Source: a virus. Taken from it: a DNA stretch of 32,756 nucleotides. The notes below the pieces were generated by a model that saw only the letters and a list, made by a program, of their open reading frames with translations, had not been told where the DNA came from and made no database searches. How positions within the stretch are numbered: the stretch's first letter is position 1; every line of letters starts with the position of its first letter. Location: positions 1 to 32,756 of the IMG/VR virus record IMGVR_UViG_3300006192_000021, one strand, 5' to 3'. A program made the position numbers and the translations under genes. Below are positions 1-30,623 of this stretch, in pieces.

Positions 1-22
1 AGTGAAAGGGGGTCATTACTAA

Positions 23-451
23 GTGAAAATGTCAGACAGGCTAAGAGAAAACATCAATAATAAGAAGAATAGTGTGAACGCAAAAGAAGAAGTAGGCAGT
101 GCCTTTAACATGGTAGCCCTCAAGCTCCTTAGAAAATTTACTGAAGAAGTGGAAGCCGGAAGTATAGAAGTCACAGATATCTCGGACGTGATGAGACTAT
201 ACAATATGTTCCTGTCTGTGAACGACCTACAGAATGGAGAAGAAGGTTCAGGTAAGTTACCTGCACTACCAAGAGAGCAAAGGAAGCTGTTAGAGGATAG
301 CATCACTACAGTGAAAGCAAGAAATGAAGAAGAGGAAGACCAGGATTATATTAACGACTTCGAGTTTGAGAATAAGACAGCAGAAGAAATTGCCGAACTG
401 TTAACAAGACGAGAAGCAGAAGTTAATAAAACCAACGAGGGGGTATTTTAA
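23..451 (+). CDS. Small acidic protein upstream of terL; possible small terminase subunit
   Basis: 142 residues. The GTG at 23 is the first start after an in-frame TAA at 20 and sits about 10 nt behind an AAAGGGGG ribosome binding site; the ATG at 29 is too far away. The N-terminal 60 residues are charged and helical, the middle holds a short linker (LQNGEEGSGKLPALP), and residues from about 100 on are strongly acidic (EEEEDQDYINDFEFE). It ends 2 nt before the terL start and is surely in the same operon. Position, size and an acidic C-terminus fit a small terminase subunit that recognises DNA and loads TerL, but I see no clear helix-turn-helix and the name is positional inference only. The window begins just before this gene, so its promoter is not visible. 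Confidence 0.6.
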   Translation: MKMSDRLRENINNKKNSVNAKEEVGSAFNMVALKLLRKFTEEVEAGSIEVTDISDVMRLYNMFLSVNDLQNGEEGSGKLPALPREQRKLLEDSITTVKARNEEEEDQDYINDFEFENKTAEEIAELLTRREAEVNKTNEGVF

Positions 452-453
452 GA

Positions 454-664
454 ATGACAAACAGTATCCCTGACGGGAAAGAACTACTAGCAATGACGAA
501 AAATATATTCAACACGGATAGGGTGACACCAGAACAACTAGCATATGTAATGGATATGTTAAGACCATCATCTTATGCACTAAGGAATCACACAATAAAA
601 GGGAGACCAATGACATTTAATGTGTCAGGACGGAACTCAGAGAAAGCACAGTCACATAGACCAT
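454..664 (+). CDS. terL: terL exon 1 (N-terminal region)
   Basis: Encodes residues 1-70 plus the first base of Trp71. Unspliced, it would end at the TGA at 664-666. The last exon bases AGACCAT pair with intron bases GTGGTCT at 674-680, seven contiguous pairs ending in the U-G wobble that marks group I 5' splice sites. Joining T664 to GG at 1982-1983 makes the Trp codon of RPWQIQML, which restores the run up to Walker A. Confidence 0.92.
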
Positions 665-3600
665 GAATTTGTTGTGGTCTTTAAACTCTACTAAACAGGC
701 ATAGCTGAATAACCAATAAGCTGGTGAGAAAGCCTAAGTCCTTGACATACTATACATAGTACTGTACAATAGGATAGTGGTAATCCTGTAGGAAAGAATC
801 CTAGTTAACTAGGAGGAAATCTCAAACGACTAAACTTCTGGATAGCTTCACAAATGGGTGAAGTGAAAACCGGATAAAAAAACTCTACTACTTATGAAAG
901 TAAAAAAAAAAATAAAAGAGAGGAGGTACCATAAGTGACTAGTATAGAAGAACGAACGAAGATGCTAATAGAAAAACTAGAGAATAAGAAAGGAAAAGAT
1001 TTTTCTCTAGTATCAGGATTCACAGCACAGGTAAATCCTGCCCTGTTCAGGCATAATGTATGCGGGCACAAGTGGGAAACTAAACCAGTAAACATACTAA
1101 GAGCTCCAGGAAAACTGGGTTGCCCTAATTGCCAATACAGAGCAAAATCTATTAGCACAGAAGAGTACTCTAACAAACTTTACAAATTGCATGGAGATGA
1201 GTACACATTAGTTGAGGGTCAGGAATATGCGAACAACTCAACGAAACTTCTATTTAACCATAACTCATGTGGTACAGTATTCTCTACTCGACCTAGGAGC
1301 ATGTTTGTTAACGAGATTAGTTGTCCTTATTGCTTTAGTAAACAACCCTCGAAGAAACTAAAGACTACCGATAGTTTTTCAAAAGAGCTCCAAGAAAAAC
1401 ATTCAGGGGAATACGCCTTGGTAGAAGGTTCTGAGTATAAAGACGCTCTGAGTAAAGTTAGAGTAACTCATACATTATGTGGGTACACTTGGGATGTCAG
1501 AGCTTCTCATATACTACACACTAGTGGATGTCCCGTGTGTCAGTCATCTAAAGGAGAGAAGTTAGTAAAGAATTTGTTAAACAAGTATGAAGTTAGCTTT
1601 ATCCAAGAGCACACTTTTGAAGATTGCAGGAACACACGACCTTTACCTTTTGACTTTGCACTAACTAACCAAACAGAGGTTGTTGGTATCATAGAGTATG
1701 ATGGTATACAGCATTACAAGCCTTTTGATTATTTTGGTGGAGAATCTAAGTTTAAAGAAACTAAGACAAATGACACCAAGAAAACTAACTATTGTAAAGA
1801 TAATGGTATCCCCCTCCTTAGAATAAAGTACACAAGCAGTAAAGCCACTGTAGAAAGGCTAGTAAAAAAATTCATAGATAAAGTAGAGAAGTAACGTAGA
1901 GAGTCCTACACCTAAAAGTAGGATTATGATATAGTCTAGACCCCTAATAAATATCGGGAAACCGAGGGTATACAATAAATGGGCAAATCCAAATGCTAAA
2001 TGACCCCCACCCAAACTTAGCGGTAATTAAATCGAGACAGCTCGGGCTAAGTGAATTAGGGGTATTGAAACTTATACACTTTATGGACACAAGAAGCTAT
2101 GATTCTATAAAAGCACTATACGCATTCCCTAGATAGATGGGGCACTACAGAGTAATTTGTAGTGGAAACATTCCGTTAAACGGGCATAGCAAAATAACCA
2201 ATATGCTGATAAGAGAGCCTAAAGTCCTTGACATACCGTACGTAATACTGTACAATAGGATAGAGGTAATCCCGTGCTAAATCAGTACGAAAGTACTGTA
2301 AATGCCTAACGACTAAATTTCTGGTTAGCTTCACAAACGGGTGAAGTGAGAACCAGGTAAGAAAATCTTGTTTTATAAAAAAAATCCTGAATAACAAATT
2401 TAAAGAGGGAGGAGGTAGAAGATGACAAAGAGAAAAACACATGAAGAGTATCTAGCAGATGTATACAATCTAGTTGGAGACGAGTATACTGTAATAGGTA
2501 AGTACACACGAACAAAAGACAAACTAGAGATGAAACATAACACTTGCGGTACTGCATGGAAGATAACACCAAATAACTTTATAAAGGGTAGGAGATGTCC
2601 TAGCTGTGCGGAAGATAACCAGTTTAAGACTAAATCACAGGACACCTTTACCGAAGAGGTGAATAATATTTACAAAGGTGAAGTTATTGTTGTAGGAAAT
2701 TACAAAGATTCCTTCACACCTGTAGAATTACACTGTAAGACTCATAGATATACTTTTAAAAAGAAGCCTTCCACAGCCCTTTCTGGAGCACGAGTATGTA
2801 AGCATTGCAGAGGAGAGTACATGAGTGAGATTCAGAGGAAATCTGAAGATACGTTCTTACAGGAACTACAAAGTAGGCATAGCGGGAGTATAGTATGCAA
2901 CTCAACGTATATCAACACTCACACAAAGATTGACTTTGAATGTACAAAGTGTGAAACGGTATTCAGTGCGGAACCCAATGCAGTACTTCGTATTAGTGGT
3001 TGTCCAGAGTGTGCAAGCTCCTGGGGAGAGAAACATATTAAACAGTATCTAACCGAGAACAAGATAATGTTTGAGTCTCAGAAATCATTTCCAGGATGTA
3101 AGGATAAGCGGTTGTTACAATTCGACTTCTACCTACCAGAGTATGATATACTAATAGAGTATGATGGGAAACAACACTTTGAGCCAGTAGAGTTCTTCGG
3201 AGGATTAACTAGATACGAGGAGCAGGTAAGAAAAGATAAAATAAAAACTGAATATGCAAAAAGAAAGGGAATTAAACTTGTAAGAATACCTTATACTGTT
3301 ACAGGAGACAGTATAGCAGAGGTACTTAGCAAGAATATAAAACAAGAAAGTAAAGCGGAAGACCTTATACCAAAAAGTAAGGTTATGATATAGTCTAAAC
3401 CGACTCTTAAATGAGTGTTAAAGTATAGCGAAAGCTACGGTAGAATTGACGAATAGTGCAATGGAAGATTTCGTAAAAACAAGATTAGACCCTGCTCTAC
3501 ATCAGGGGTATTATTCTACAATATTAGACCCAGATACGGATTCTCTTAAAGTTAAAAAAATAAGAGATTCTTTTGTTTTCTTCAGGTCAAGTTCAAAACC

Positions 3601-6467
3601 TGGTGCTCTCGAAGGGATAGATGTGGACTACGTAGCACTAGATGAGTGAATAATCACGCTCAGTTAGCTAGTAATAGCTAATACAATAAACTCTACTAAA
3701 CGGGGAAACTCTAAGGGAGCGAAGCTCCTATGACAATCCCGTGCTAAATCAGGCTCTAGCCTGTAAATGCCGAGAGACTAAATTTCTAGATAGGTATACA
3801 AAAGGGTATACTGAGAACTAGATAAAAGCCGAAAGGTGTAACGTAGAGAATCCTACACCAAAACGTAGGATTATGATATAGTCCAAGCCCCCAATAAATA
3901 TCGGGAAACCGAGGGTATTAACTGATGACCGGGTCCCAGGACTTGCAGAAGCTTCAGCAGAACAGTCCATGTCCTCATCCAAGTATCAAATATTTAACCG
4001 ATGGAGCACACCATCAATTCCGAACGATGGGATTCACCGGCTATTTGTTCAATCAGACGAGAATTGGTACCTACATAAGTGCGAAAGATGTAACCACTAT
4101 AACCAACTAAGTTATGAGGATTATGACCCAAGTTCTGAAAATGCGGGAGGTAACATCCTTAATGTTAACCCTGATGGGATTGATTATATTGCTAAAACAG
4201 TTGTTCCAGGTTCTTACCAATTCGTTTGTAAGAAATGTGGTAAGCCACTTGATAGATGGTACAACGGGCAATGGGTTGCTAAGCACCCTGAACGAGTACA
4301 AGGGAACAATGGTATAAAAGGTTATATGATTTCTCAACTCAATGCCGTCTGGATAAGTGCCGATGACCTAAAAACAAAAGAATTAAATTCAACGTCTAAG
4401 CAAGCATTTTATAACTATATATTAGGATTCCCGTACGAAGATGTTAAGTTTGCAGTAAAAGACGATGATGTATACAGAAACTTAAATGATAGAAGAGCGT
4501 ATCTACAAGATAGAGAAGACTACAAGTTTGTTGCAACAGGAATAGACTGGGGTAAATGTTTTGCCCCCTTAAGTAGTAATACTTAATGTAAAACCTTGTT
4601 AAACGGGCATAGCTGAATATCGAATAAGCTGGTAAGAGAACCTAAACCCTGAGAAGGGCAGAGGCAATCCCGTAGCAAAGAATCCTAAGTAATTAGGAGG
4701 AAGAGCTCGAACGACTAACTATTCGGGTAATCTAACAAATGTGTTAGACTAGAACTGAATGAGAGTTGCATTAGTAATACATCGTGAATAACTTACGTAA
4801 AGGAGGGTAGTAATGGTAAAAAAGAAAACTAATGAGCAGTGGAAAAAAGAGGTTAAATCTCTCGTAGGAGATGACTATATATTTTTAGAGGAATATAAAA
4901 GGAACCATAGCAAAATACTAGTTAAACATGAGAAATGTGGAGGAAGCTACAAGGTAACTCCTGGAGCTTTTAAACAAGGTAATAGATGCCCATACTGTAA
5001 TCCTTATAGGAAGAGGACGACTGAAGAGTTTAAAGATATAGTACATAAACTAGCAGACAAAGAGTACACAGTTATCACAGAATACACAGGACATCATGAC
5101 CGAGTAAAGATAAAACACTCTACTTGTGGAATTGAGTACTATGTAGCCCCAAGTGATTTTATTAAAGGAAGACGGTGCAAAGACTGCCACTTTCGAAGTA
5201 GAATAAAGGCTACTGAGGACTGGTTAAAACAAGTTTATGACTTAGTTGGTACTGATTACGAATTTCTAGAAGAGTACCACGGAGATGATATTAAACTCAG
5301 GTATAAACACTCGTGCGGAGCCATTGGAGAAGTCACACCAAATAATTTCATAAACGGTACAAGATGTTCAGCATGTAAAGAGAGTTCTGGAGAAACTAAT
5401 ATACGGAGGTATTTAACCGAGAATAATCACACCTTCCAACCACAGAAATCTTTTGAAGACTTACGAGGACAGAAGTTGTTATCTTACGACTTTTATATAC
5501 CAAGTCATGAAATCCTTATTGAGTTTCAAGGGATACAACATTATTACCCTGTCGAGTTCTTTGGTGGGGACGTAGCCTTTAAGAACCAGAAGAAACACGA
5601 TTACTTAAAGAGGGAATATGCAGATAATAAGGGGATTAAACTAATCGAAATCCCTTATACCTACGATACTTACGAGAAAGTAAAAGCGTTATTGGATACC
5701 ACGATGTCTGATAAGCACTAATGCAACGTAACACAAGGAACCTCATAACAAAACTTGAGGTTATGATATAGTCTACTCCCCTAATAAATATCGGGAAACC
5801 GAGGGTATAAAGGAATAGGCACTGGTTAACAACCATCGGGATGCGTAATAACGGACAGATTGACCTTATCGGATTAGAGAACGTAGCAAAAACAGGAGCA
5901 ACTGACTCAATGAATATTGGAGCTGACTTAGAACAAGTTAAGATGTATTTAGCTAAAGTGAAGCCAGACATAATCATTGCAGATATTGGAGACTCCGGAG
6001 ATAAAGTAGCAAAATTAATAGAGTACTATGGAAACAACAAAGTATTCGGGTGTGAGTATAACTCATCACCTAAATCAACGGGACAGCTTATACCTACATG
6101 GAATGAAGAGAGCCATAAAGTAAAAGTAGATAAGTTAATGCAAAACAAACGCTATATTAGTTGGTTGAAGGAGGGCGTAGTCACCCACCCAAATATGCCT
6201 AACGATAGACAGCTACAGGCGTACTTAAACCACTGGAAGAATGTAACCATTCGAGACGTTGAAGACGAGCGTACAGGAGAGTTTAGGCAAGTTATAGGAA
6301 GACGAGGAGACGACCACTACGCTCAGAGTGCAGTTTACGCTATGTTAGGCGTAGAAAGACTAAGAGAATTACACTTTGGTTCCGGAACATATGGATTTAA
6401 CTCAGATTTCATTGGATTACAATACAACCCAGAACCAACATTACCAGATATATTCAACAAGAATTAA
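454..6467 (+). CDS. terL: Terminase large subunit, five exons joined across four group I introns
   Basis: The join 454-664, 1982-2130, 3449-3647, 3925-4553, 5814-6467 totals 1842 nt and encodes 613 residues with no stop. TerL is the ATP-driven DNA packaging motor and headful/cutting nuclease at the portal. Motifs seen: Walker A-like VIKSRQLGLSE (85-95), Walker B GIDVDYVALDEYDR (176-189), a C4 zinc-ribbon-like insert (C239, C242, C288, C291) of the kind found in GpA-like terminases, and RNase H-like nuclease acids D394 (in IDWG), D453/D456 (ADIGD) and D562/D563 (GDDHYAQSAVYA). Without splicing every exon runs into a stop within a few codons, so active protein depends on removal of all four introns. 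The ATG at 454 follows GAGGGGGT by 9 nt. Confidence 0.95.
742..770 (+). promoter_or_regulatory. Sigma-A-like promoter sequence or coincident RNA hairpin in intron 1
   Basis: TTGACA (742-747), a 17-nt spacer and TACAAT (765-770) match a housekeeping promoter closely, 165 nt before the endonuclease start. The same bases also fold as an imperfect hairpin (TCCTTG-ACA-TACTAT against ATAGTA-TGT-CAA-AGGA), in the place where introns 3 and 4 have plain short hairpins. The promoter reading is therefore uncertain. Confidence 0.4.
935..1894 (+). CDS. Intron 1 homing endonuclease, EDxHD (Vsr-like) family
   Basis: 319 residues. GTG start at 935, 7 nt behind AGGAGGT. Three repeated modules of about 60 residues (to about residue 200), each with HxxCG...W/F...CPxC, look like small zinc ribbons and probably bind DNA. 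The C-terminal nuclease domain has E208 (GEK), D240 (FDF), H260 (in IEYDGIQHY) and a later Asp in TNDTKK, followed by GIPLLRI. This order fits the EDxHD homing endonucleases typified by I-Bth0305I, which share the fold of the Vsr mismatch endonuclease. The expected role is cutting intronless terL near the insertion site so the intron is copied in. The stop ends just before the P3 3' strand. Confidence 0.85.
   Translation: MTSIEERTKMLIEKLENKKGKDFSLVSGFTAQVNPALFRHNVCGHKWETKPVNILRAPGKLGCPNCQYRAKSISTEEYSNKLYKLHGDEYTLVEGQEYANNSTKLLFNHNSCGTVFSTRPRSMFVNEISCPYCFSKQPSKKLKTTDSFSKELQEKHSGEYALVEGSEYKDALSKVRVTHTLCGYTWDVRASHILHTSGCPVCQSSKGEKLVKNLLNKYEVSFIQEHTFEDCRNTRPLPFDFALTNQTEVVGIIEYDGIQHYKPFDYFGGESKFKETKTNDTKKTNYCKDNGIPLLRIKYTSSKATVERLVKKFIDKVEK
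1982..2130 (+). CDS. terL: terL exon 2 (Walker A exon)
   Basis: A 149-nt exon encoding Trp71 to Pro120. It carries the Walker A-like motif IKSRQLGLSE and reads on as YAFP before the intron's stop codon at 2134. The exon is too short to look like a gene by itself and is easily missed; it has no ribosome binding site of its own. The 5' boundary leaves G1981 as the last intron base, as group I introns require. Confidence 0.9.
2228..2256 (+). promoter_or_regulatory. Sigma-A-like promoter sequence or coincident RNA hairpin in intron 2
   Basis: TTGACA (2228-2233), 17-nt spacer, TACAAT (2251-2256), in the same intron position as the copy in intron 1 and 166 nt before the endonuclease start. The spacer differs from intron 1 in several bases while both hexamers and the spacing are unchanged. 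The outer arms also pair (TCCTTGACA with TGTACAATAGGA), so RNA structure could explain the conservation. Confidence 0.4.
2422..3393 (+). CDS. Intron 2 homing endonuclease, EDxHD (Vsr-like) family
   Basis: 323 residues. ATG at 2422 behind GGAGGAGG. Three zinc-ribbon-like modules: the first has HNTCG...CPSC, the second is divergent (CKTH...CKHC), the third has CTKC...CPEC. The nuclease domain carries E203 (GEK), D235 (FDF), IEYDGKQH with H252, and an Asp in RKDKIKTEYAKRKGIKL. Paralogue of the genes in introns 1 and 4, with the same 32-residue gap between the Glu and first Asp. Unusual: the last 13 or so codons cover the intron's P3, P8 and P7 3' strands, and the TAG stop at 3391 is part of P7. 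Translation and ribozyme folding must therefore compete. Confidence 0.86.
   Translation: MTKRKTHEEYLADVYNLVGDEYTVIGKYTRTKDKLEMKHNTCGTAWKITPNNFIKGRRCPSCAEDNQFKTKSQDTFTEEVNNIYKGEVIVVGNYKDSFTPVELHCKTHRYTFKKKPSTALSGARVCKHCRGEYMSEIQRKSEDTFLQELQSRHSGSIVCNSTYINTHTKIDFECTKCETVFSAEPNAVLRISGCPECASSWGEKHIKQYLTENKIMFESQKSFPGCKDKRLLQFDFYLPEYDILIEYDGKQHFEPVEFFGGLTRYEEQVRKDKIKTEYAKRKGIKLVRIPYTVTGDSIAEVLSKNIKQESKAEDLIPKSKVMI
3449..3647 (+). CDS. terL: terL exon 3 (Walker B exon)
   Basis: Encodes Thr121 to Glu186 and the first base of Tyr187. It continues exon 2 as YAFP-TNSAMEDFVKTRLDP and ends in the Walker B motif DVDYVALDE. The TTG at 3446-3448 is intron sequence, not a start. A TGA at 3647-3649 would stop it without splicing. 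Exon end TGAGT pairs with intron GCTCA (3658-3662). Confidence 0.92.
3648..3924 (+). ncRNA. Group I intron 3 of terL, ORF-less
   Basis: 277 nt with no gene. P1: exon TGAGT with GCTCA (3658-3662), extended by flanking pairs CTAG/TTAG. P3: CTCTAC (3691-3696) with GTAGAG (3843-3848). P6-like stem AGGC-tcta-GCCT near 3751-3762. P7: GACTA (3776-3780) with TAGTC (3879-3883). Between them lies a P7.2-like stem of GTATAC repeated as a palindrome. P8: AATCCTAC (3849-3856) with GTAGGATT (3865-3872). Shared P9 stem TCGG-GAAA-CCGA. It shows the minimal ribozyme and therefore the insertion point of the endonuclease genes in its relatives. Confidence 0.93.
3925..4553 (+). CDS. terL: terL exon 4 (ATPase C-terminal part, zinc ribbon, first nuclease Asp)
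   Basis: Encodes Tyr187 to Gly396. It completes DEYDR just after Walker B, carries the segment with C239xxC and C288xxC that resembles the zinc ribbon of GpA-type terminases, and ends in GIDWG, whose Asp394 is the first metal ligand of the nuclease. The ATG at 3969 (Met202) is internal, with no ribosome binding site. Exon end GGGGT pairs with intron GCCCC (4563-4567). Confidence 0.93.
4554..5813 (+). ncRNA. Group I intron 4 of terL, carries a homing endonuclease gene
   Basis: 1260 nt. P1: exon GGGGT with GCCCC (4563-4567). P3: CCTTGT (4594-4599) with ACAAGG (5733-5738). P6-like stem TCCTAA-gtaa-TTAGGA near 4683-4698. P7: GACTA (4713-4717) with TAGTC (5769-5773). P8: CCTCA (5741-5745) with TGAGG (5756-5760). 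P9 stem TCGG-GAAA-CCGA as in introns 1 and 3. Last base G5813. P3 and P8 differ in sequence from the other introns but keep pairing, which is covariation support. Confidence 0.92.
4813..5721 (+). CDS. Intron 4 homing endonuclease, EDxHD (Vsr-like) family
   Basis: 302 residues. ATG at 4813 behind AAAGGAGGG. Three zinc-ribbon-like modules of the form KH..CG......P..F..G.RC..C. The nuclease domain has E194 (GET), D226 (YDF), H243 and an Asp in KKHDYLKREY, then GIKLIEI. It differs from its two paralogues at residue 239, where IEFQGIQH replaces IEYDGxQH; the Asp to Gln change lies two residues from a conserved Glu and four from the conserved His, and could lower activity. The gene is shorter mainly in the spacers between modules. 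The stop lies 11 nt before the P3 3' strand. Confidence 0.85.
   Translation: MVKKKTNEQWKKEVKSLVGDDYIFLEEYKRNHSKILVKHEKCGGSYKVTPGAFKQGNRCPYCNPYRKRTTEEFKDIVHKLADKEYTVITEYTGHHDRVKIKHSTCGIEYYVAPSDFIKGRRCKDCHFRSRIKATEDWLKQVYDLVGTDYEFLEEYHGDDIKLRYKHSCGAIGEVTPNNFINGTRCSACKESSGETNIRRYLTENNHTFQPQKSFEDLRGQKLLSYDFYIPSHEILIEFQGIQHYYPVEFFGGDVAFKNQKKHDYLKREYADNKGIKLIEIPYTYDTYEKVKALLDTTMSDKH
5814..6467 (+). CDS. terL: terL exon 5 (nuclease domain)
   Basis: Encodes Asn397 to the stop, 217 residues. Joined to exon 4 it reads GIDWG-NRHWLTTIGMRNNG. It holds the remaining nuclease acids: ADIGDSGD at about 452-459 and GDDHYAQSAVYAM at about 561-573. The ATG at 5841 is internal (Met406) and lacks a ribosome binding site. 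The next gene starts 13 nt after the stop behind AAGGAGGTG, which overlaps the terL stop. Confidence 0.93.
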   Translation, partial: NRHWLTTIGMRNNGQIDLIGLENVAKTGATDSMNIGADLEQVKMYLAKVKPDIIIADIGDSGDKVAKLIEYYGNNKVFGCEYNSSPKSTGQLIPTWNEESHKVKVDKLMQNKRYISWLKEGVVTHPNMPNDRQLQAYLNHWKNVTIRDVEDERTGEFRQVIGRRGDDHYAQSAVYAMLGVERLRELHFGSGTYGFNSDFIGLQYNPEPTLPDIFNKN

Positions 6468-6479
6468 GGAGGTGCGATA

Positions 6480-7469
6480 TTGGATTACTCCCAAGAACAA
6501 AAAGAAACTATGTTTAAAAACATCCTAGCTTATGTTGCAGATACTAAAGCGGAAGAGGGTGTAAATGCTAAGATACATCCAGACACTATCCATAGATTGG
6601 TAGGAATTGAACTTGATGAAGATAGAGTAATCCTTCACCGAGAGGAGCTGAACAAGAACTTCGGTTACTTGTCAGCTTCTTACGGGTTTAGGGACTTCTA
6701 CGATTTCTACTTATACGCCATGGCTTGCGAAGCAGAAGAGCCTTTAGTAAAAGGGATAGGTAAGAGTTATAATAAGATAACCCGAACTATCACAAGAAAT
6801 GATAAACCTATACAAGTAGACTTTTACACAGAAGGTTCCGAATACGAACCAGTAGAAAAGAGTGGAGGTAGGAGACAGAAAGACTACTCTAAACTTAAGC
6901 AGGTTAAGCGTACTGTTACGAGAAACGGAAAACCAACAGAGATGACATTCTACGAAGACCCGAATAAGGATAGTGATGACGGAGCACAAGGAGGCGGAGG
7001 AGAAGAGGAAGATACCTCCCCTAAACCTGTAGACGCTAAAGAGTTACGGAAAGCTTCGGTAGGAGCAGAAAAGAAAAAAGTTAGTATGAAAGAGCTAAAC
7101 GCCCTAAAAGATATGCACACATCTATCGGAGGGCAAGGAGAATTCAGTGCAGACTCAGAAGTGTATCAAGTCCTTGCAGACGAGAACAATAACATAATGG
7201 GAATGGTAGGATTCAACTACGACTCGGAGTACGTCACCCTCACTTTTGGAGATAGTAACGAATTAGTTAATAACTTTGACGTAAGACTGTTTATGGAACT
7301 TGTAAACGAGGGACTCAGACGAGGGTTAGGAATAAGAACGAAACACTTAGGTACACGCACCTTCGATATCCTTGTTGAAGACCATGAGATGAATATCCCA
7401 GATACAGTAGACGGATACTACACACAAGAGAAGGACAAGTTGTTAGACGCTTATGGTTACGGTGACTAA
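6480..7469 (+). CDS. Unknown structural-region protein with an internal repeat
   Basis: 329 residues; not recognised. TTG start at 6480, 4-5 nt behind AAGGAGGTG. The N-terminal 90 residues are a mixed helical region rich in aromatic residues (YLSASYGFRDFYDFYLYAM). Two similar segments follow, NKITRTITRNDKPIQVDFYTE (about 98-118, here split: NKITRTITRN and DKPIQVDFYTE) and VKRTVTRNGKPTEMTFYED (about 142-160). A Gly/Glu/Asp-rich linker near 165-180 leads to a C-terminal domain of about 130 residues (DSEVYQVLADENNNIMGMVG onward). No signal peptide or membrane segment. It lies between terL and the lysis genes and overlaps the next gene by 17 nt. Related phages have uncharacterised genes here. Confidence 0.85.
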   Translation: MDYSQEQKETMFKNILAYVADTKAEEGVNAKIHPDTIHRLVGIELDEDRVILHREELNKNFGYLSASYGFRDFYDFYLYAMACEAEEPLVKGIGKSYNKITRTITRNDKPIQVDFYTEGSEYEPVEKSGGRRQKDYSKLKQVKRTVTRNGKPTEMTFYEDPNKDSDDGAQGGGGEEEDTSPKPVDAKELRKASVGAEKKKVSMKELNALKDMHTSIGGQGEFSADSEVYQVLADENNNIMGMVGFNYDSEYVTLTFGDSNELVNNFDVRLFMELVNEGLRRGLGIRTKHLGTRTFDILVEDHEMNIPDTVDGYYTQEKDKLLDAYGYGD

Positions 7470-8283
7470 TGTCACGATAATCTTACTAGTCGTATTCGTA
7501 ACCCTCGTACTCGTACCAGAGGTGAGGGAATACGCTAGAAAAAGGCAGGAAGAGCGAGAAGAGCTCGACAAAAAACGAGTTGAGCTACAAAATGAGATAA
7601 AACGGATTTCTGGTATAATAAGAAAAGAAGTTAACAAGGGAGCAATTTTAGGAGGAGATAGTGTAATGGAATTAAAGAACACAAACAGTTTAGGGCAGTT
7701 ATTAGATGTAAAGGCGAAAGAGGAAGATTATGAACTAGCATTGGGAATGCTTATTGAGGAAGTAAAATCTAAGTACGCAGATTTCCAGTTTAAGTTACTT
7801 AAGCCTCAACAGGGAGATTTCTTCTCTGGGTACGCAGTTACTTTTGAGCTATTACCAAAAGAAGACCATGAGTTCTTACATACATTGTTTAAAGTCGTGA
7901 TTGGTAAAAATCTATCTGAAGGTAAACTAGCCGACCTATTCGTAGAACAAGTCAAGAAAGGTAATGTACTAGACTTAGGGGATGTCACTTTAGATGAGAC
8001 AGGGACAGGAATGTCAACCTTACTATCCGGAGAAGCGGTAACTATCGCCATCTCATTCGAAACCGAAGAATATAAAGAAGAACGATTAAAAAATGAAGAA
8101 GAGAAGAAAAAAGAAGAAGAAGCACACAAAGCTAAACAAGAGAAAATGGAAAAACTACGAGTAGAAGCTCACAAAGCAATCACAGAAGCGTCAGTTATCC
8201 TCAGTGAGATGAGTAAAGAAATCGTAGCCAAGCATCCAGAGTACTTAGAAGCATATAATCGAATGAGAGAGTTATACAAATAA
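7453..8283 (+). CDS. Membrane-anchored coiled-coil protein of unknown function
   Basis: 276 residues. The ATG at 7453 overlaps the preceding gene. Residues 7-23 are a single hydrophobic segment (VTIILLVVFVTLVLV), followed by a charged coiled coil (about 25-60, REYARKRQEEREELDKKR), a globular middle, and a second Glu/Lys-rich coiled coil at about 197-225. An in-frame ATG at 7666 (Met72) has its own strong GGAGGAG site 8 nt upstream, so a soluble 205-residue form (7666-8283) may be made as well, or may be the main product. A spanin-like role is conceivable from the N-terminus and the nearby lysis genes, but nothing in the sequence proves it. Confidence 0.75.
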   Translation: MVTVTNVTIILLVVFVTLVLVPEVREYARKRQEEREELDKKRVELQNEIKRISGIIRKEVNKGAILGGDSVMELKNTNSLGQLLDVKAKEEDYELALGMLIEEVKSKYADFQFKLLKPQQGDFFSGYAVTFELLPKEDHEFLHTLFKVVIGKNLSEGKLADLFVEQVKKGNVLDLGDVTLDETGTGMSTLLSGEAVTIAISFETEEYKEERLKNEEEKKKEEEAHKAKQEKMEKLRVEAHKAITEASVILSEMSKEIVAKHPEYLEAYNRMRELYK

Positions 8284-8713: not shown

Positions 8714-9166
8714 ATGGAAAATATTTTAATTACTTTAGGGGAAGAGTTGACCCCAATTATCTTAAACTTTGTTGTGGTACTGGTAACCTTACTATTCGGA
8801 TACTTAGGTAAAAAAGCAGGAAAGCTATTTGATAACTTATCCGAACGTGAGAGAGTGAAGACAGTTATTGACTTAGGACACAAGCACAAAGAGATTGTAC
8901 AGTCAGCAGTTGAATTCGCAGAACAAGTAGGTAAACAATTAAAACTCCATGGAGAAGAGAAGTTTAACTTAGCCAAAGAGACAGCAATCGCCTCAGCACA
9001 AAAAGAAGGTATAGATATCTCGACAGCAGACATTGACATGCTTATCGAGAGTGCAGTCAATGCCTTTAATGGAGGATTTAGTGCAATACGAACACAAGAG
9101 ATTACAACAGATGAATTATACATAGGGGAAGCTAAAAAAGAGCAAGAAGACGTAGTTGAAGGGTAA
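8714..9166 (+). CDS. Holin, LL-H family
   Basis: 150 residues. ATG at 8714 behind AGGAGGA. One clear membrane helix at about residues 14-32 (IILNFVVVLVTLLFGYLGKK) is followed by a long charged amphipathic region ending in an acidic tail. This layout, with the segment EIVQSAVEFAEQVGKQL, is that of the LL-H type phage holins. It would form lesions in the cytoplasmic membrane to release the endolysin. The endolysin gene starts 28 nt after the stop, giving the usual holin-endolysin pair. No second holin-like gene adjoins it. Confidence 0.85.
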   Translation: MENILITLGEELTPIILNFVVVLVTLLFGYLGKKAGKLFDNLSERERVKTVIDLGHKHKEIVQSAVEFAEQVGKQLKLHGEEKFNLAKETAIASAQKEGIDISTADIDMLIESAVNAFNGGFSAIRTQEITTDELYIGEAKKEQEDVVEG

Positions 9167-9194
9167 GGATGAACCTAAAAAAGGAGACAACAGA

Positions 9195-10868
9195 ATGAGT
9201 AAAAAGTTTAAAGTAGCTTTAGATATTGGACATGGTTCCAATACCTTCCCCACTAGCGGTAAAGGGGTACGAGTCAACGGGGTAGGCTATGCAGAGCATA
9301 ATTTCAACTCCAAATTAGCGATTAAAATCAAAGCACTATTAGAAAATTCAGGCGTAGAGGTGGTAATGTACCAACAACCATACAGCCCAGACACACCACT
9401 CCGTTCCAGAACAAATTGGTACAGACAACAAGGTGTTGACTTAATCATATCAGTACACGCTAATGCGAATGGTAATCGTGCAGTAAACGGGAGATGTATA
9501 TTCTTCTGGCACACCTCTACAGGTGCAAGAAACTTAGCCCAAACACTAGTCAACGAGATAGTGGGGAAAGGTTACAGCACACATAGCAATGGCTTACACG
9601 CTTCTATGGAAGACAGTTGGACAAACTTACATATGGCAAGAGTACCGGCATTATGGGGTAGAGATGCCGTACCATCTGTTTTAGTAGAATATGGATTTAT
9701 GACGGGAAGCAGTGACTTTAACCTTATCTTCGGTTCACAACAAGATAAATACACAACCGACATGGCAGAAGCAACAGCAAAAGGGATTACTAAGTTCCTA
9801 GGTACAGCCTTTAAAGGAAAAGCTGTTGAGGTTAAAAACCCAACCAACAGTATCACACCGTCAAACACAGAAACGTATACAGTTAAAGCAGGAGATACCT
9901 TATGGGCTATCGCTCAGGCGAATGGTGTATCCGTTGAAGACCTGAAACGAATGAACAACTTAGATAGTAACATTGTTAAACCAGCACAGAAATTAATTGT
10001 CAAGGTTAAAGAAGACAAGAAAGACGAAGTTATCTTAACTAGACCAGATACGTATACTATCCAACCAGGAGACACGTTAGGTGAGATTGCAACAGAGTTC
10101 GACATTAGTATGGCAGACTTAGCAACGTGGAACAACATTAGTAACCCAGATGTTATTGTTGTGGGCGAGACACTTAAGCTTAAGAGAAATGCAGTTATCC
10201 CGACACAGAAGCCAACAACTACAGCTCCACGCTTCGTAGTCGGAGAGAGAGTACAAATTAGTCAGTCTGCTAGAACCTACGCAACTGGACAGACTATTCC
10301 TAGTTCGATTAAAGGGAAGACGTATACTATCATGCAAGTAGACACAAACAGAGTCTTACTACAAGAAATTATGTCATGGGTGAGACGAACTGATATCGCA
10401 GGAAATACTGTAAGTCCTGCACCTGCTCCTAAACCTGCACCTAAACCTGCACCTAAACCAGCTCCTAAAGCAACTGGAGTGTCTATATCAGTAGGAGATA
10501 AAGTTGTATTGAATACCTCAGCTAAAAGATATACTACTGGACAAGCAATTCCAGCATCGGTTAAAGGTAAAACTTATACGGTTAGACAAATCGGAAGTCA
10601 AGGAATCTTATTGGCAGAGATTATGTCATGGGTAGGGGTTGGAGATGTATCCCGAGCAGGTACAGCAACTGCACCTAAATCAAGCCCGGCACCGTACAGA
10701 GTTGGGGACAAGGTTAAGATTAAGCAGTCAGCACGAACGTACTACACCGGACAAACTATCCCAAATAGTGTTAAAGGAAGAACGTACACGATACAACAAG
10801 TAGCTAACGGAAGAGTGTTACTACGAGAAATCGTATCATGGGTAAGAACCCACGATATAACAAGATAA
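9195..10868 (+). CDS. Endolysin: N-acetylmuramoyl-L-alanine amidase with LysM and SH3-like repeats
   Basis: 557 residues. The ATG at 9195 follows AAAAGGAGAC by 7 nt; an upstream in-frame ATG at 9156 lies in the holin gene without a good site. Residues 5-206 are an Amidase_3 domain with zinc ligands and catalytic residues at H13 (DIGHG), E34 (AEHNFN), H88 (SVHAN) and E165 (LVEYGF). It cuts the bond between MurNAc and L-Ala of the stem peptide. Two LysM modules (about 227-272 and 284-330) bind glycan. Three SH3-like repeats of about 55 residues follow (ARTYATGQ, AKRYTTGQ and ARTYYTGQ versions), with an (APKP)n linker between the first two. No signal peptide, so release needs the holin. A terminator follows directly. 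Confidence 0.95.
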   Translation: MSKKFKVALDIGHGSNTFPTSGKGVRVNGVGYAEHNFNSKLAIKIKALLENSGVEVVMYQQPYSPDTPLRSRTNWYRQQGVDLIISVHANANGNRAVNGRCIFFWHTSTGARNLAQTLVNEIVGKGYSTHSNGLHASMEDSWTNLHMARVPALWGRDAVPSVLVEYGFMTGSSDFNLIFGSQQDKYTTDMAEATAKGITKFLGTAFKGKAVEVKNPTNSITPSNTETYTVKAGDTLWAIAQANGVSVEDLKRMNNLDSNIVKPAQKLIVKVKEDKKDEVILTRPDTYTIQPGDTLGEIATEFDISMADLATWNNISNPDVIVVGETLKLKRNAVIPTQKPTTTAPRFVVGERVQISQSARTYATGQTIPSSIKGKTYTIMQVDTNRVLLQEIMSWVRRTDIAGNTVSPAPAPKPAPKPAPKPAPKATGVSISVGDKVVLNTSAKRYTTGQAIPASVKGKTYTVRQIGSQGILLAEIMSWVGVGDVSRAGTATAPKSSPAPYRVGDKVKIKQSARTYYTGQTIPNSVKGRTYTIQQVANGRVLLREIVSWVRTHDITR

Positions 10869-27100: not shown

Positions 27101-28017
27101 CAGAGAGACTACAACAACAAGCAGATGCGGTCTTGAAAGTTAAAGGAACTCACAAAGTCAATGAAGACTTCAACTCAGTAACCGAACAGGAAGAGAAGTC
27201 TACTGTATCTCAACGAGTACACGCAGAACAACTAAGAGACAGCAACATCATTCAAGAGAACAAGAACTTATCTAAGTATGAAACCTTACTAGCCGAAACC
27301 AGAAGATTACTACAAATGTCAGCTACACAAAACGGCATTATAGGATTCTTAACTGGGCTACCTTCTGGTGGTTCTGGGGGAGCTTCGGGACAGCAGAAAG
27401 CTGTAGGAGACGGAAGGTACTGGACGAACTCAGATATAACTAAGCATGACTTAGGCTCAACGTCTAATGAGTTATCCGCACAAGAACTAAACGATTGGAT
27501 TAATTCAAAAGCACCGGCTAACTCAATCATGCGAGGTATGGGCGAAGCCTTTATGACAGCTGGACAAGAATCCGGACTAGACCCTAGATACCTTGTAGCA
27601 CACTCAGCCTTAGAAACCGGGTGGGGTACAAGTAACATAGCCCGAGATAAAGGTAACATGTACGGAATAGGTGCCTTTGACGCTTCACCATATGCTTCCG
27701 CTTACGAGTACTCGGGTACTGAAGCGGGAATCATCGAGGGAGCAAAATGGATTAGAGGAAACTACTACGACAAAGGGAACACAGACTTAACCAAGATGCA
27801 CGAAGCCGGGTACGCTACTGACCCAGAATGGGCGAGTAAAATAGGTAACACGATGAAGGGTGCTGAGAAGTATACCAGCCCATCACAAGAGGTTAACGTG
27901 AACACAACAGTTAACTATCAAGGTACAGGAGACACCACAAGAGACGCAGAACGGATAGGAACTGTAATTTCCAACAACATATCAGCTACCTTTAGGCACG
28001 AGAGAATTAGAGCATAA
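24151..28017 (+). CDS. Tail tape measure protein with C-terminal glucosaminidase-like domain
   Basis: 1288 residues. ATG at 24151, about 10 nt behind AAGGAGGTGA. The N-terminal 400 residues are long helices and coiled coil. Gly/Ala-rich hydrophobic stretches follow at about 770-990 (IGTSIAIGLGAGIGSFLTG; GGLAGGIGGYFLGSKGGEA), likely the membrane-inserting part. Residues of about 1125-1260 resemble GH73-type glucosaminidases, with candidate acid E1155 in AHSALETGWGTSNIARDKGN and GNMYGIGAFD after it. The protein sets tail length (at about 0.15 nm per residue, near 190 nm if fully helical) and may open peptidoglycan during injection. The terminator at 28024 follows directly. Confidence 0.95.
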   Translation: MAERDVFNFQIGADNQKAKEAFTELKQLAKEVSEASSNLTASPGINRNFSNLIKEMTEAQIKYTEFKTSMDENIQIKTSIIYDTRADADTKRKAQESINAMRQQVKRAREDFMVMNNEGARAITNYERTTGRKGRAVPKSSFYLDDLNATERSHNFVNSTAKSIKSETQEALRIGRSALSSKFINNNNASTYKRITGELLSEDVQGASIDQIRSGQPIDAPTPGSLRHQIMYEREQAKERGAGIYANMTETAPTEHMNRLEDMNNRYGKALRDIDSPIRELESKKAVTEQTGGIFPESEAQELEELLQKRNRIEQKYNLAVEEETIRHELQMSAFRKEFKLTEDVVQSTTKTLDLLDDSAKKLAEQVEEVTTANVRQKHDRDEWQGRVSERASAIGLAVAGAMAYAVGSRYSSGKQTVDSMREDSLNIGYRTGNADFRGIRQDYMEQGAPQGWKGQDMIAFSEAVLGSLGYIDGDNLTSNMQNIADFSKFSGAGQESATAFTSGLLSTGGITDADQARAVQEGFIGAIKASGMEGREREQLDAVTAINDNIYRGREASEEEINSRNAMMAVLAGTGNRGLQGENLADFMMGADNAIKGADPFSNMGMLLGVGSDEAFSGTDWLYEFMKIQEQGFSPENFNTILQNLTPMTDGSPEAIASQLKALTGVSTGVEPLRDFIAKYPDGVPIGADGEALLKELEVIGAGELDTRESNYMESGDQSAQAQEAYLAKMDSLLNDNAMIDSINSLKESFGDWASDSAGRAIGTSIAIGLGAGIGSFLTGVIGTMMGTVGLKMFSKTLFGGGSPIIAKLLGKFGAGAGGAGAGAGAGGIPTVAPYAGQKIAQYGAGGAGSGGGGLFSGGGEALAGGLKGGASKVMSTISKVAPWLMVMNGMYQTATADDKVKEGYTQAGGIGGALVGGKAGAVAVGKLGATIGTTILPGIGTAIGATLGGLAGGIGGYFLGSKGGEAIGTALSPQEKAKREEAERLQQQADAVLKVKGTHKVNEDFNSVTEQEEKSTVSQRVHAEQLRDSNIIQENKNLSKYETLLAETRRLLQMSATQNGIIGFLTGLPSGGSGGASGQQKAVGDGRYWTNSDITKHDLGSTSNELSAQELNDWINSKAPANSIMRGMGEAFMTAGQESGLDPRYLVAHSALETGWGTSNIARDKGNMYGIGAFDASPYASAYEYSGTEAGIIEGAKWIRGNYYDKGNTDLTKMHEAGYATDPEWASKIGNTMKGAEKYTSPSQEVNVNTTVNYQGTGDTTRDAERIGTVISNNISATFRHERIRA

Positions 28018-28101: not shown

Positions 28102-30027
28102 TTGGAAAACCCAATGACAACAACCGTACTAAGAAGACCAACATTTGACTTAAGATTTATAACCGAGAACAGTGAGTATCATATTGTCCATGACCTATCT
28201 GTATCCTTGAAGAACAAGTTTATGACAGAAAGTGTCATCAGTATGACGACTGCAAACGCAATGGAAGATGATTCCTCAGCTTTCTCTTTTGTCCTTGCCG
28301 GAGATATGGAATGGACGAAGATACTTAATGCGAATGATATGGTCGTACTTAAAATAAACCCAAATGAAGTTACACCAAATGACTTAAGTAAAAAAGACAA
28401 AGTAAAAAACGATGTCATCATGATAGGACTAGTCACAGAAGTAAGACTAGAAGGTACCTATAGTGATAACACAAAAATGTATAGAGTAACCGGACAATCA
28501 TTCGCTAAAGCATTCATTCAATTTGAACTAAGTACCATAAGGCAAGTAACCTATACAGGGGTTACTGGCTGGTTAGAGAATGAGAGTACTGATTCTGGAG
28601 GAACTGGCGGAGGATTCTACGCAGAGCTATCCAGAAAGACAGTGGCAGAGACCGTTAAAGCTATGCTAGATAGGTTCATGCAATACATGGAATATAACTT
28701 TGTGAGTGACGAAACAGACAATACAAAACTCCTAACACGAATCCGAACAGAAATAACAAGTTGGTCTGAAGACGAGATGCTACAAGACCCCACACCCTTC
28801 TTGAACTTTGAAGGTTCCTTTAACCAACTACTAGGAGAGATAGTAACCAAACCTTTCTGTGAGAAATTCTTTGAAGTATGGATAAGTGAAGAAGGTAACG
28901 AGAAAGCTAAATTTGTTGTAAGACGAACACCATTTGATGAAGAGGACTGGAAGAGACTGCCGAGACATGAACTATACTCTAGGGACGTAATCACAGAGAG
29001 TGTAGCCCACTCAGACATGGATGCCTACTCAGTGTTCAGTATATTCCCAGAAAACAGTATTGTATCAAACACCTCCGCCTTAGTCAGACCGAAATACCAC
29101 CCGAGTTTAATCAAGAAGTATGGGTACAAAATGCTAGAAGTTACACACAGTTACCTGTCACCTATGAACGATAATGCTCCAGACTCGGACGTTGGTAATC
29201 TTATAGATAGATACTCCACGAGGCTGTATAACTGGTACTCAAATAACCCTAACTTCTATGAAGGGGAAATTGTAGTGATTGGGCACCCAGATTACCGACT
29301 TGGTAACCGACTACTATACAGAGACACAGAGAATAGTGATGTATGGGAGTATTACATTGAAAGTGTTGAACATGAGTTTACATATACACAAGGGTACACA
29401 ACAACACTAGGAGTTACAAGAGGCTTACGAATTGAAACCAACCCAGACTCACCAAACTACGACTTAGACGGGGGACGATTCACTAACACAGTAGGAGACC
29501 CGCAAGACTTCAAAGGAGGCTACTTCGGAGAAGCATCTATCGGAACCATGATTAATATGATGGAAGGGGCTCAAACAGATAGCCCAGAAAGAGCCGGATT
29601 AGGAAACACTGTCAACAACTCAAATACCGTAAAGCCTGCTGAAGGGGTAAAGACTTCAGGATACGGAAACAGATACCACCCAATTTCTGGGCAATGGCGA
29701 ATGCACGAAGGGACAGATATAGCCGGAGGAAGTTCCGTCATCAGAGCTATGGCAAGTGGGGTAGTCGTTACCGCAAGGTTTGATTCTGGATGGGGTCGGT
29801 ACATAGAGATAGACCATGGCAATTTAAACGGAGAAGGTAAGGTACTATCCCGGTACGCTCACTTGGAACAAAGTCACGTAGCCGTAGGGCAGAACGTAAC
29901 AGCCGGAGAACAGATAGGCGTTATGGGGCAAACCGGAACCGCTACAGGGGTCCATTTACACTTTGAGATGGAAGTGAATGGGCAGAAGATAAACCCTGAA
30001 ACGTGGTTTACTTGGAGGGAAGCTTAA
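28102..30027 (+). CDS. Tail hub protein with C-terminal M23 peptidase (tail-associated lysin)
   Basis: 641 residues. TTG start at 28102 behind GAGAGGGGATG. Residues 1 to about 480 have the hub (gp27/gpD-like) pattern of beta-barrel segments (LVTEVRLEGTYSDNTKMYRV, YIESVEHEFTYTQGYTTTLG). A Gly/Asn-rich linker leads to an M23 (lysostaphin-type) zinc metallopeptidase at about 515-641, with H535 and D539 (HEGTD) and H618, H620 (HLHFE). It would cut peptide cross-bridges of the cell wall at the tail tip. The stop overlaps the next ATG by one base (TAATG). Confidence 0.92.
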   Translation: MENPMTTTVLRRPTFDLRFITENSEYHIVHDLSVSLKNKFMTESVISMTTANAMEDDSSAFSFVLAGDMEWTKILNANDMVVLKINPNEVTPNDLSKKDKVKNDVIMIGLVTEVRLEGTYSDNTKMYRVTGQSFAKAFIQFELSTIRQVTYTGVTGWLENESTDSGGTGGGFYAELSRKTVAETVKAMLDRFMQYMEYNFVSDETDNTKLLTRIRTEITSWSEDEMLQDPTPFLNFEGSFNQLLGEIVTKPFCEKFFEVWISEEGNEKAKFVVRRTPFDEEDWKRLPRHELYSRDVITESVAHSDMDAYSVFSIFPENSIVSNTSALVRPKYHPSLIKKYGYKMLEVTHSYLSPMNDNAPDSDVGNLIDRYSTRLYNWYSNNPNFYEGEIVVIGHPDYRLGNRLLYRDTENSDVWEYYIESVEHEFTYTQGYTTTLGVTRGLRIETNPDSPNYDLDGGRFTNTVGDPQDFKGGYFGEASIGTMINMMEGAQTDSPERAGLGNTVNNSNTVKPAEGVKTSGYGNRYHPISGQWRMHEGTDIAGGSSVIRAMASGVVVTARFDSGWGRYIEIDHGNLNGEGKVLSRYAHLEQSHVAVGQNVTAGEQIGVMGQTGTATGVHLHFEMEVNGQKINPETWFTWREA

Positions 30028-30623
30028 TGAGCGAAATGCACAAACCACATAATAAAACACAAGAAGAGATAGAACGCAACAGGCAACTAATACAACGAAC
30101 AGAAGAAACGAATATATCAACACAGTTGCTGAGAGCACTTGAAGAAGAGAAGCAACCAACTGAGCAGGCGAAAGAAGCAACCGATTTTGCATTAACCTTC
30201 CTAGACCAGATAACTATCTACTCAATCCATGAAGGGTGGAGAGATACCAACCCTCTTCTAGGGGAAGCACCCTACGCAATGGATAATGCTTCCTTTGTCT
30301 ACTGGTGCTATCACAAAGCGGGGGTACAGTTAAGAGGTGGGAACAAGAATCACACAGTTCAGACCATTAAGAATGATTTTAACCTCACTACCGTAGGGAA
30401 CATAGGGGCGAACTTAGACTATGAAGACTTGGCTTATGGAGACATACTGTTCTTCTATAATGACAAGCATATTGGAATATACATAGGGGACGGAGATTTC
30501 ATAAGCTTCCTAGGTACAGGAGCTAACAACCCTTCTGGTGGGTTAAGAAAAAGAAACATGATTAAAGGTAAGTGGAGAAACCACTTCCAAGGACACGTAA
30601 TGAGACATAGAGAGGAGGCATAA
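30027..30623 (+). CDS. NlpC/P60-like tail protein lacking the usual catalytic Cys
   Basis: 198 residues. The ATG at 30027 has GGAGGGA 6 nt upstream; an in-frame GTG at 30003 lies inside the hub gene without support. N-terminal helix (about 1-50), then an NlpC/P60-type fold: PYAMDNASFVYWCYHKAGV, LAYGDILFFYNDKHIGIYIG, FISFLG. In active enzymes the motif is DCSxFV; here N87 replaces Cys and A88 the next Ser, while H148 (KHIGIYIG) is kept. It may be inactive and serve as a wall-binding or structural plug, or C94 could substitute, which I think less likely. Cotranscribed with the hub and the next baseplate gene. Confidence 0.85.
   Translation: MSEMHKPHNKTQEEIERNRQLIQRTEETNISTQLLRALEEEKQPTEQAKEATDFALTFLDQITIYSIHEGWRDTNPLLGEAPYAMDNASFVYWCYHKAGVQLRGGNKNHTVQTIKNDFNLTTVGNIGANLDYEDLAYGDILFFYNDKHIGIYIGDGDFISFLGTGANNPSGGLRKRNMIKGKWRNHFQGHVMRHREEA

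Follow-up and report, generated by a model that had tools for sequence, protein, structure and literature searches.

A stand-alone NlpC/P60-like protein without its catalytic cysteine is encoded beside an M23-bearing hub among the tail genes of a herellevirus-like phage

What becomes of a cell wall hydrolase domain in a phage tail once its nucleophile is gone? The question is raised by IMGVR_UViG_3300006192_000021, an IMG/VR fragment of 32.8 kb that comes from a Herelleviridae-like myophage and is analysed here over its whole length of 32,756 nt (hereafter the window). PHROG matches identify portal, major head, sheath, tape measure and hub genes, and the nearest match of the hub is that of the herellevirus Aerococcus phage AVP. 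An initial annotation of positions 28102-30623 had proposed three wall-acting domains in the tail, one of them apparently dead; Pfam places all three types, GH73, M23 and NlpC/P60, in consecutive tail genes (Table 1), the tape measure lying outside the interval originally described. The M23 motifs of the hub and the GH73 motif of the tape measure, whose residue roles we presume, look intact. The start codon of the small third gene overlaps the stop codon of the hub (TAATG), which probably couples the translation of both, and its reading frame is intact.

Table 1. Features of the tail region of the window.
Feature	Coordinates	Strand	Evidence
Tape measure / tail-associated lysin, 1288 aa	24151..28017	+	phrog_1047, E 2e-162
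GH73 (Glucosaminidase) domain, tape-measure residues 1132-1238	27544..27864	+	Pfam E 4e-18; HSALETGWG kept
Baseplate hub / tail lysin, 641 aa	28102..30027	+	phrog_1015, E 8.5e-157; hub tree
M23 peptidase domain, hub C-terminus, residues 533-632	29698..29997	+	Pfam Peptidase_M23 E 1.3e-24; MHEGTD, YAHLE, GVHLHF present
Stand-alone NlpC/P60-like protein, 198 aa, without catalytic Cys	30027..30623	+	Pfam PF00877 33.1 bits; phrog_1015 C-terminal part, E 1e-27; model and fold search
Codon AAT, Asn87, nucleophile position	30285..30287	+	Alignments
Codon CAT, His148, kept catalytic-site His	30468..30470	+	Alignments

Elsewhere in the window, the terminase large subunit gene is found in pieces between 935 and 6467, with 3969-4586 and 5841-6467 matching consecutive parts of phrog_675, and three HNH homing endonuclease ORFs (935-1894, 2422-3393 and 4813-5721) lie in the same stretch. 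An Rfam search of positions 1-7000 placed a group I intron at 3638-3904, above the gathering score at 56.1 bits; a scan of the whole window (1-32756) at gathering scores returned nothing, and its fast filters seem to miss the group I intron. A 570 aa endolysin-like protein is encoded at 9156-10868, its matches being to endolysin, LysM-motif and transglycosylase families.

The small protein is predicted to have the papain-like NlpC/P60 fold. Its NLPC_P60 match spans residues 79-187 and exceeds the curated cut-off of 23 bits, and around 45 aa precede the NlpC domain. An AlphaFold model, built with 23 sequences, has a pLDDT of 91.2 and a pTM of 0.79. With VIA-align, this model superimposes on the endopeptidase CwlO with a Z score of 19.5 over 131 residues at 2.0 Å, and further fold matches are ORF57 of phage phi812 (Z 16.2, 145 residues) and RipD (Z 13.4). 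The PHROG match of the gene, which directly follows the hub, is to positions 647-793 of the hub family itself.

The core helix of NlpC/P60 enzymes begins with the catalytic Cys. The corresponding motif in the small protein is D86-N87-A88-S89-F90 (codons GAT AAT GCT TCC TTT), with His148 present, just as the initial annotation had read it in reporting DCS replaced by DNAS. N87 falls on the catalytic Cys in an ungapped match to the solved CwlO (DCSSF versus DNASF) and in the alignments with phage homologues, and in the model it begins the helix formed by residues 87-97; the structure-based comparison proposed with the original claim thus bears out a fold kept without its nucleophile. C94, the sole Cys of the protein and formerly raised as a possible nucleophile, lies in the middle of this helix and is aligned with the second Cys of many intact DCSSFVWWCY relatives; it can be ruled out as a displaced nucleophile, since active relatives keep that second Cys. 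A single read error is an unlikely origin of N87, because two adjacent codons differ from those of DCS and the exchange of Cys for Asn takes two base changes.

Other parts of the site have changed as well. The GGGR loop is altered. Fourteen positions beyond the His, 34 of the 35 intact hubs that have no second peptidase carry N or Q, and the remaining one, Goe2, has Ser; the window has Leu162 at this place, with a polar Ser160 at +12. The alignments and the model together show that the catalytic Cys has been lost from the small protein, and the peptidase activity would almost certainly have gone with it. That the protein remains enzymatically active, Asn87 or some other residue taking the part of the Cys, is highly improbable: although His148 is kept, as it is in some dead relatives with Ser at the nucleophile position, we know of no role for Asn as a papain-fold nucleophile, the polar residue at +14 has disappeared, C94 is away from the site, and relatives with N, S, T or I at this position have mostly lost the His too. 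Across 76 distinct domain sequences, not dereplicated by similarity, the nucleophile position is occupied by C in 57, S in 10, T in five, N in three and I in one.

The origin of the small protein can be traced through its relatives. In Bastillevirinae and in the Listeria, Schiekvirus and Lactobacillus herelleviruses, a homologous and intact NlpC domain is fused to the C-terminus of the hub. Most herellevirus hubs have it in this form, and comparison of these proteins identifies this C-terminal lysin domain as the source of the small protein. The window hub groups with those of AVP and the metagenomic contig L104 (support 99/99 in the hub tree). L104 encodes hub, M23 and NlpC as a single polypeptide whose nucleophile position is occupied by Ser, and AVP has its NlpC piece split from hub-M23 by in-frame stops and keeps the Cys, the two NlpC domains being 91% identical. 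Between L104 and AVP, dN/dS is higher for the NlpC domain (0.26) than for the hub (0.07). The AVP stops, TAA and TGA, lie at positions 7960-8100 of its record (L002), where the near-identical L104 reads through; they represent either a recent gene splitting or a sequence error in one record. Single-protein scans of viral contigs with the small protein or the hub found no close relatives of the window, and in the domain tree its NlpC domain sits on a long branch (1.34) with unsupported placement.

The survey of position 87 in relatives that had been suggested at the outset was extended to hubs across the family. Two alignment-query scans of viral contigs, one using the patterns D[CN][SA][SA]F and H[IV]G, which favours intact copies, and the other hub patterns only, together with phage-collection records, gave 143 hub sequences, of which 51 remained after dereplication. 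Trees used 50 of these, L018, whose hub annotation is broken into two parts with no NlpC paired, being dropped. M23 and CHAP domains were called with profiles built from hubs of the survey set; Pfam agrees well with these calls for the window, AVP, L104 and Twortvirinae hubs, the M23 domains of Kochikohdavirus (EFLK1), L040 and L050 fall below its cut-off, and in L022 Pfam finds no M23, which was called only by the profile built from the survey hubs. Among the 50 hubs, all 35 that lack a second peptidase have the Cys, and 14 of the 15 with M23 or CHAP are without it, the exception being AVP.

Pfam detects M23 in none of the 35 intact hubs. It does match CHAP in 15, which we read as cross-matches, the matches overlapping NlpC in the four proteins where positions were checked, and a profile of our own from Twortvirinae CHAP domains called none. 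A glycosidase domain accompanies the intact NlpC in five (Lysozyme_like in four, Glucosaminidase in one), each keeping its Cys, which rules out the broader idea that a second wall enzyme of whatever kind frees the Cys from constraint.

The hub tree requires five changes to account for the dead state, four of them forced by well-supported branches, in the Twortvirinae, Kochikohdavirus, the second hub copy of L040 and L050, the window and L104; the NlpC-domain tree likewise gives five changes, of which three are forced. Well-supported branches yield just three independent contrasts, all in the same direction (sign test, p 0.25), hence the association of Cys loss with M23 or CHAP on the hub is suggestive and not proven. 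In Kochikohdavirus, the motif is DSAGF in all four records read, and the domain DNA is at least 95% identical to that of EFLK1 in 37 of 38 matching records, the remaining one being 94.9% identical. The metagenomic contigs L040 and L050 each contain two complete tandem hub genes (L040:1919-7597 and L050:1832-7653), the first with an intact NlpC and without M23, the second with M23 and an NlpC domain that has Asn and lacks the His; there are possibly two kinds of hub in one virion.

Dead domains of this kind appear to be maintained. In the Twortvirinae, dN/dS of the dead NlpC domains ranges from 0 to 0.15 in five of five pairs, and ORF57 of phi812 has been modelled, together with the CHAP hub ORF56, in the cryo-EM entries of the pre-contraction baseplate (PDB 9euf and 9eug); the equivalent value for the second hub copies of L040 and L050 is undefined, synonymous sites being saturated. 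A non-enzymatic role is therefore well supported in the Twortvirinae lineage, and by analogy the dead domain of the window probably has one too.

We consider it probable that the small protein is a pseudo-hydrolase that has been retained as a component of the baseplate after M23, here, or CHAP, elsewhere, took over the cutting. What was once the C-terminal NlpC/P60 lysin domain in the tail hub of a herellevirus now has a gene of its own and lacks the catalytic Cys. Cutting at the tail tip would instead fall to the hub M23 domain for peptides and to the tape-measure GH73 domain for glycans, given that the motifs of both are intact. The dead domain would be retained as an integral part of the baseplate beside the hub, like its dead homologue ORF57 in phi812, and, on the precedent of RipD, it might also still bind stem peptides of the wall. 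The general process would be one of replacement, in which a hub gains M23 or CHAP, after which the old NlpC active site decays freely and the fold stays. Against this reading, AVP has M23 and yet keeps its Cys, the independent contrasts number just three, several M23 calls fall below the Pfam cut-off or have no Pfam match, and dN/dS between L104 and AVP is higher in the NlpC domain than in the hub. The branch of the window domain is also long and its placement unsupported, such that this domain could be decaying.

Decay could go further, leaving a functionless remnant of the M23 takeover that is on its way to being lost. The long branch and the separation of the domain from the hub would fit such a history; however, the reading frame is uninterrupted and its start overlaps the stop codon of the hub, the AlphaFold model shows a confident and complete fold, and dead homologues persist across the Twortvirinae under purifying selection and occupy a place in a solved baseplate, which makes a mere leftover quite unlikely. 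Alternatively, in line with the wall sensor or binding plug suggested by the initial annotation, the domain may serve as a peptidoglycan-binding module or sensor, the dead cleft binding stem peptides and thereby holding or positioning the tail tip before M23 cuts. RipD, which matches the fold and is non-catalytic, is reported to bind peptidoglycan (PMC12067865), and the window keeps His148 along with the core of the fold, but the GGGR loop and the +14 residue around the cleft have changed there, and in the Twortvirinae the whole site differs; such a function is unlikely as the main role. A more general proposal, that herellevirus tails repeatedly turn a tip lysin made redundant by the gain of M23 or CHAP into a reader of wall peptides that is no longer an enzyme, with the dead cleft binding stem peptides and contributing to the gating of contraction or the placement of the live peptidase, is speculative and in our estimation rather unlikely.

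Proteins that phage annotations describe as tail lysins or hydrolases are, in several whole phage groups, probably not enzymes, a point of consequence for the mining of lysins and for modelling how the wall is penetrated. The repeated, lineage-specific loss of a single residue beside a second peptidase constitutes a natural experiment on how one enzyme replaces another within a molecular machine, and the L104 and AVP pair, differing by Ser and Cys, makes this directly testable. Dead NlpC/P60 domains as such are already known from RipD, and the phi812 structure has been deposited. A search of open-access literature, covering part of the literature only, returned nothing relevant on inactive NlpC domains of phage tails; recurrent loss of the nucleophile in association with a further peptidase on the hub, the separately encoded form with Asn, the fused L104 protein and the tandem live and dead hubs were not found in it, and the recurrent loss on phage hubs is apparently the new element.

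The known systems resemble the window to differing degrees. RipD (Rv1566c) of Mycobacterium tuberculosis shares a non-catalytic NlpC/P60 domain, but is a cellular protein and no part of a phage tail. JS1_0031 and JS1_0032 are listed in PMC12977511 as virion tail proteins with lysin activity. The Bastille-type hubs Gp189 of Deep-Blue and Gp110 of Vp4 are reported in PMC11406892 (section 10) to be lytic in a turbidity assay; as described there, they have the same tail gene position and domain family as the window protein, but fused to the hub. The homologous Bastillevirinae hubs whose sequences were compared have an intact Cys. Kochikohdavirus hubs of the EFLK1 type, like the window, combine M23 with an NlpC domain that lacks the Cys and keeps the His; section 13 of PMC10194240 reports the two domains and does not mention the lost Cys. 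In contrast to the window, both lie within one hub protein, the nucleophile is Ser rather than Asn, and the Asn at +14 is kept. The sister hubs of AVP and L104 also have M23 on the hub with NlpC adjoining, AVP differing from the window in keeping the Cys and L104 in being fused and having Ser. The homologous ORF57 of phi812, named TmpE in some records, is likewise a stand-alone NlpC/P60 protein that directly follows the hub gene and has lost its nucleophile. It is a baseplate component with Thr where the window has Asn, its His has also been lost (to Asn), it has around 140 extra N-terminal residues that are absent from the window protein, and its neighbouring hub carries CHAP, whereas that of the window carries M23.
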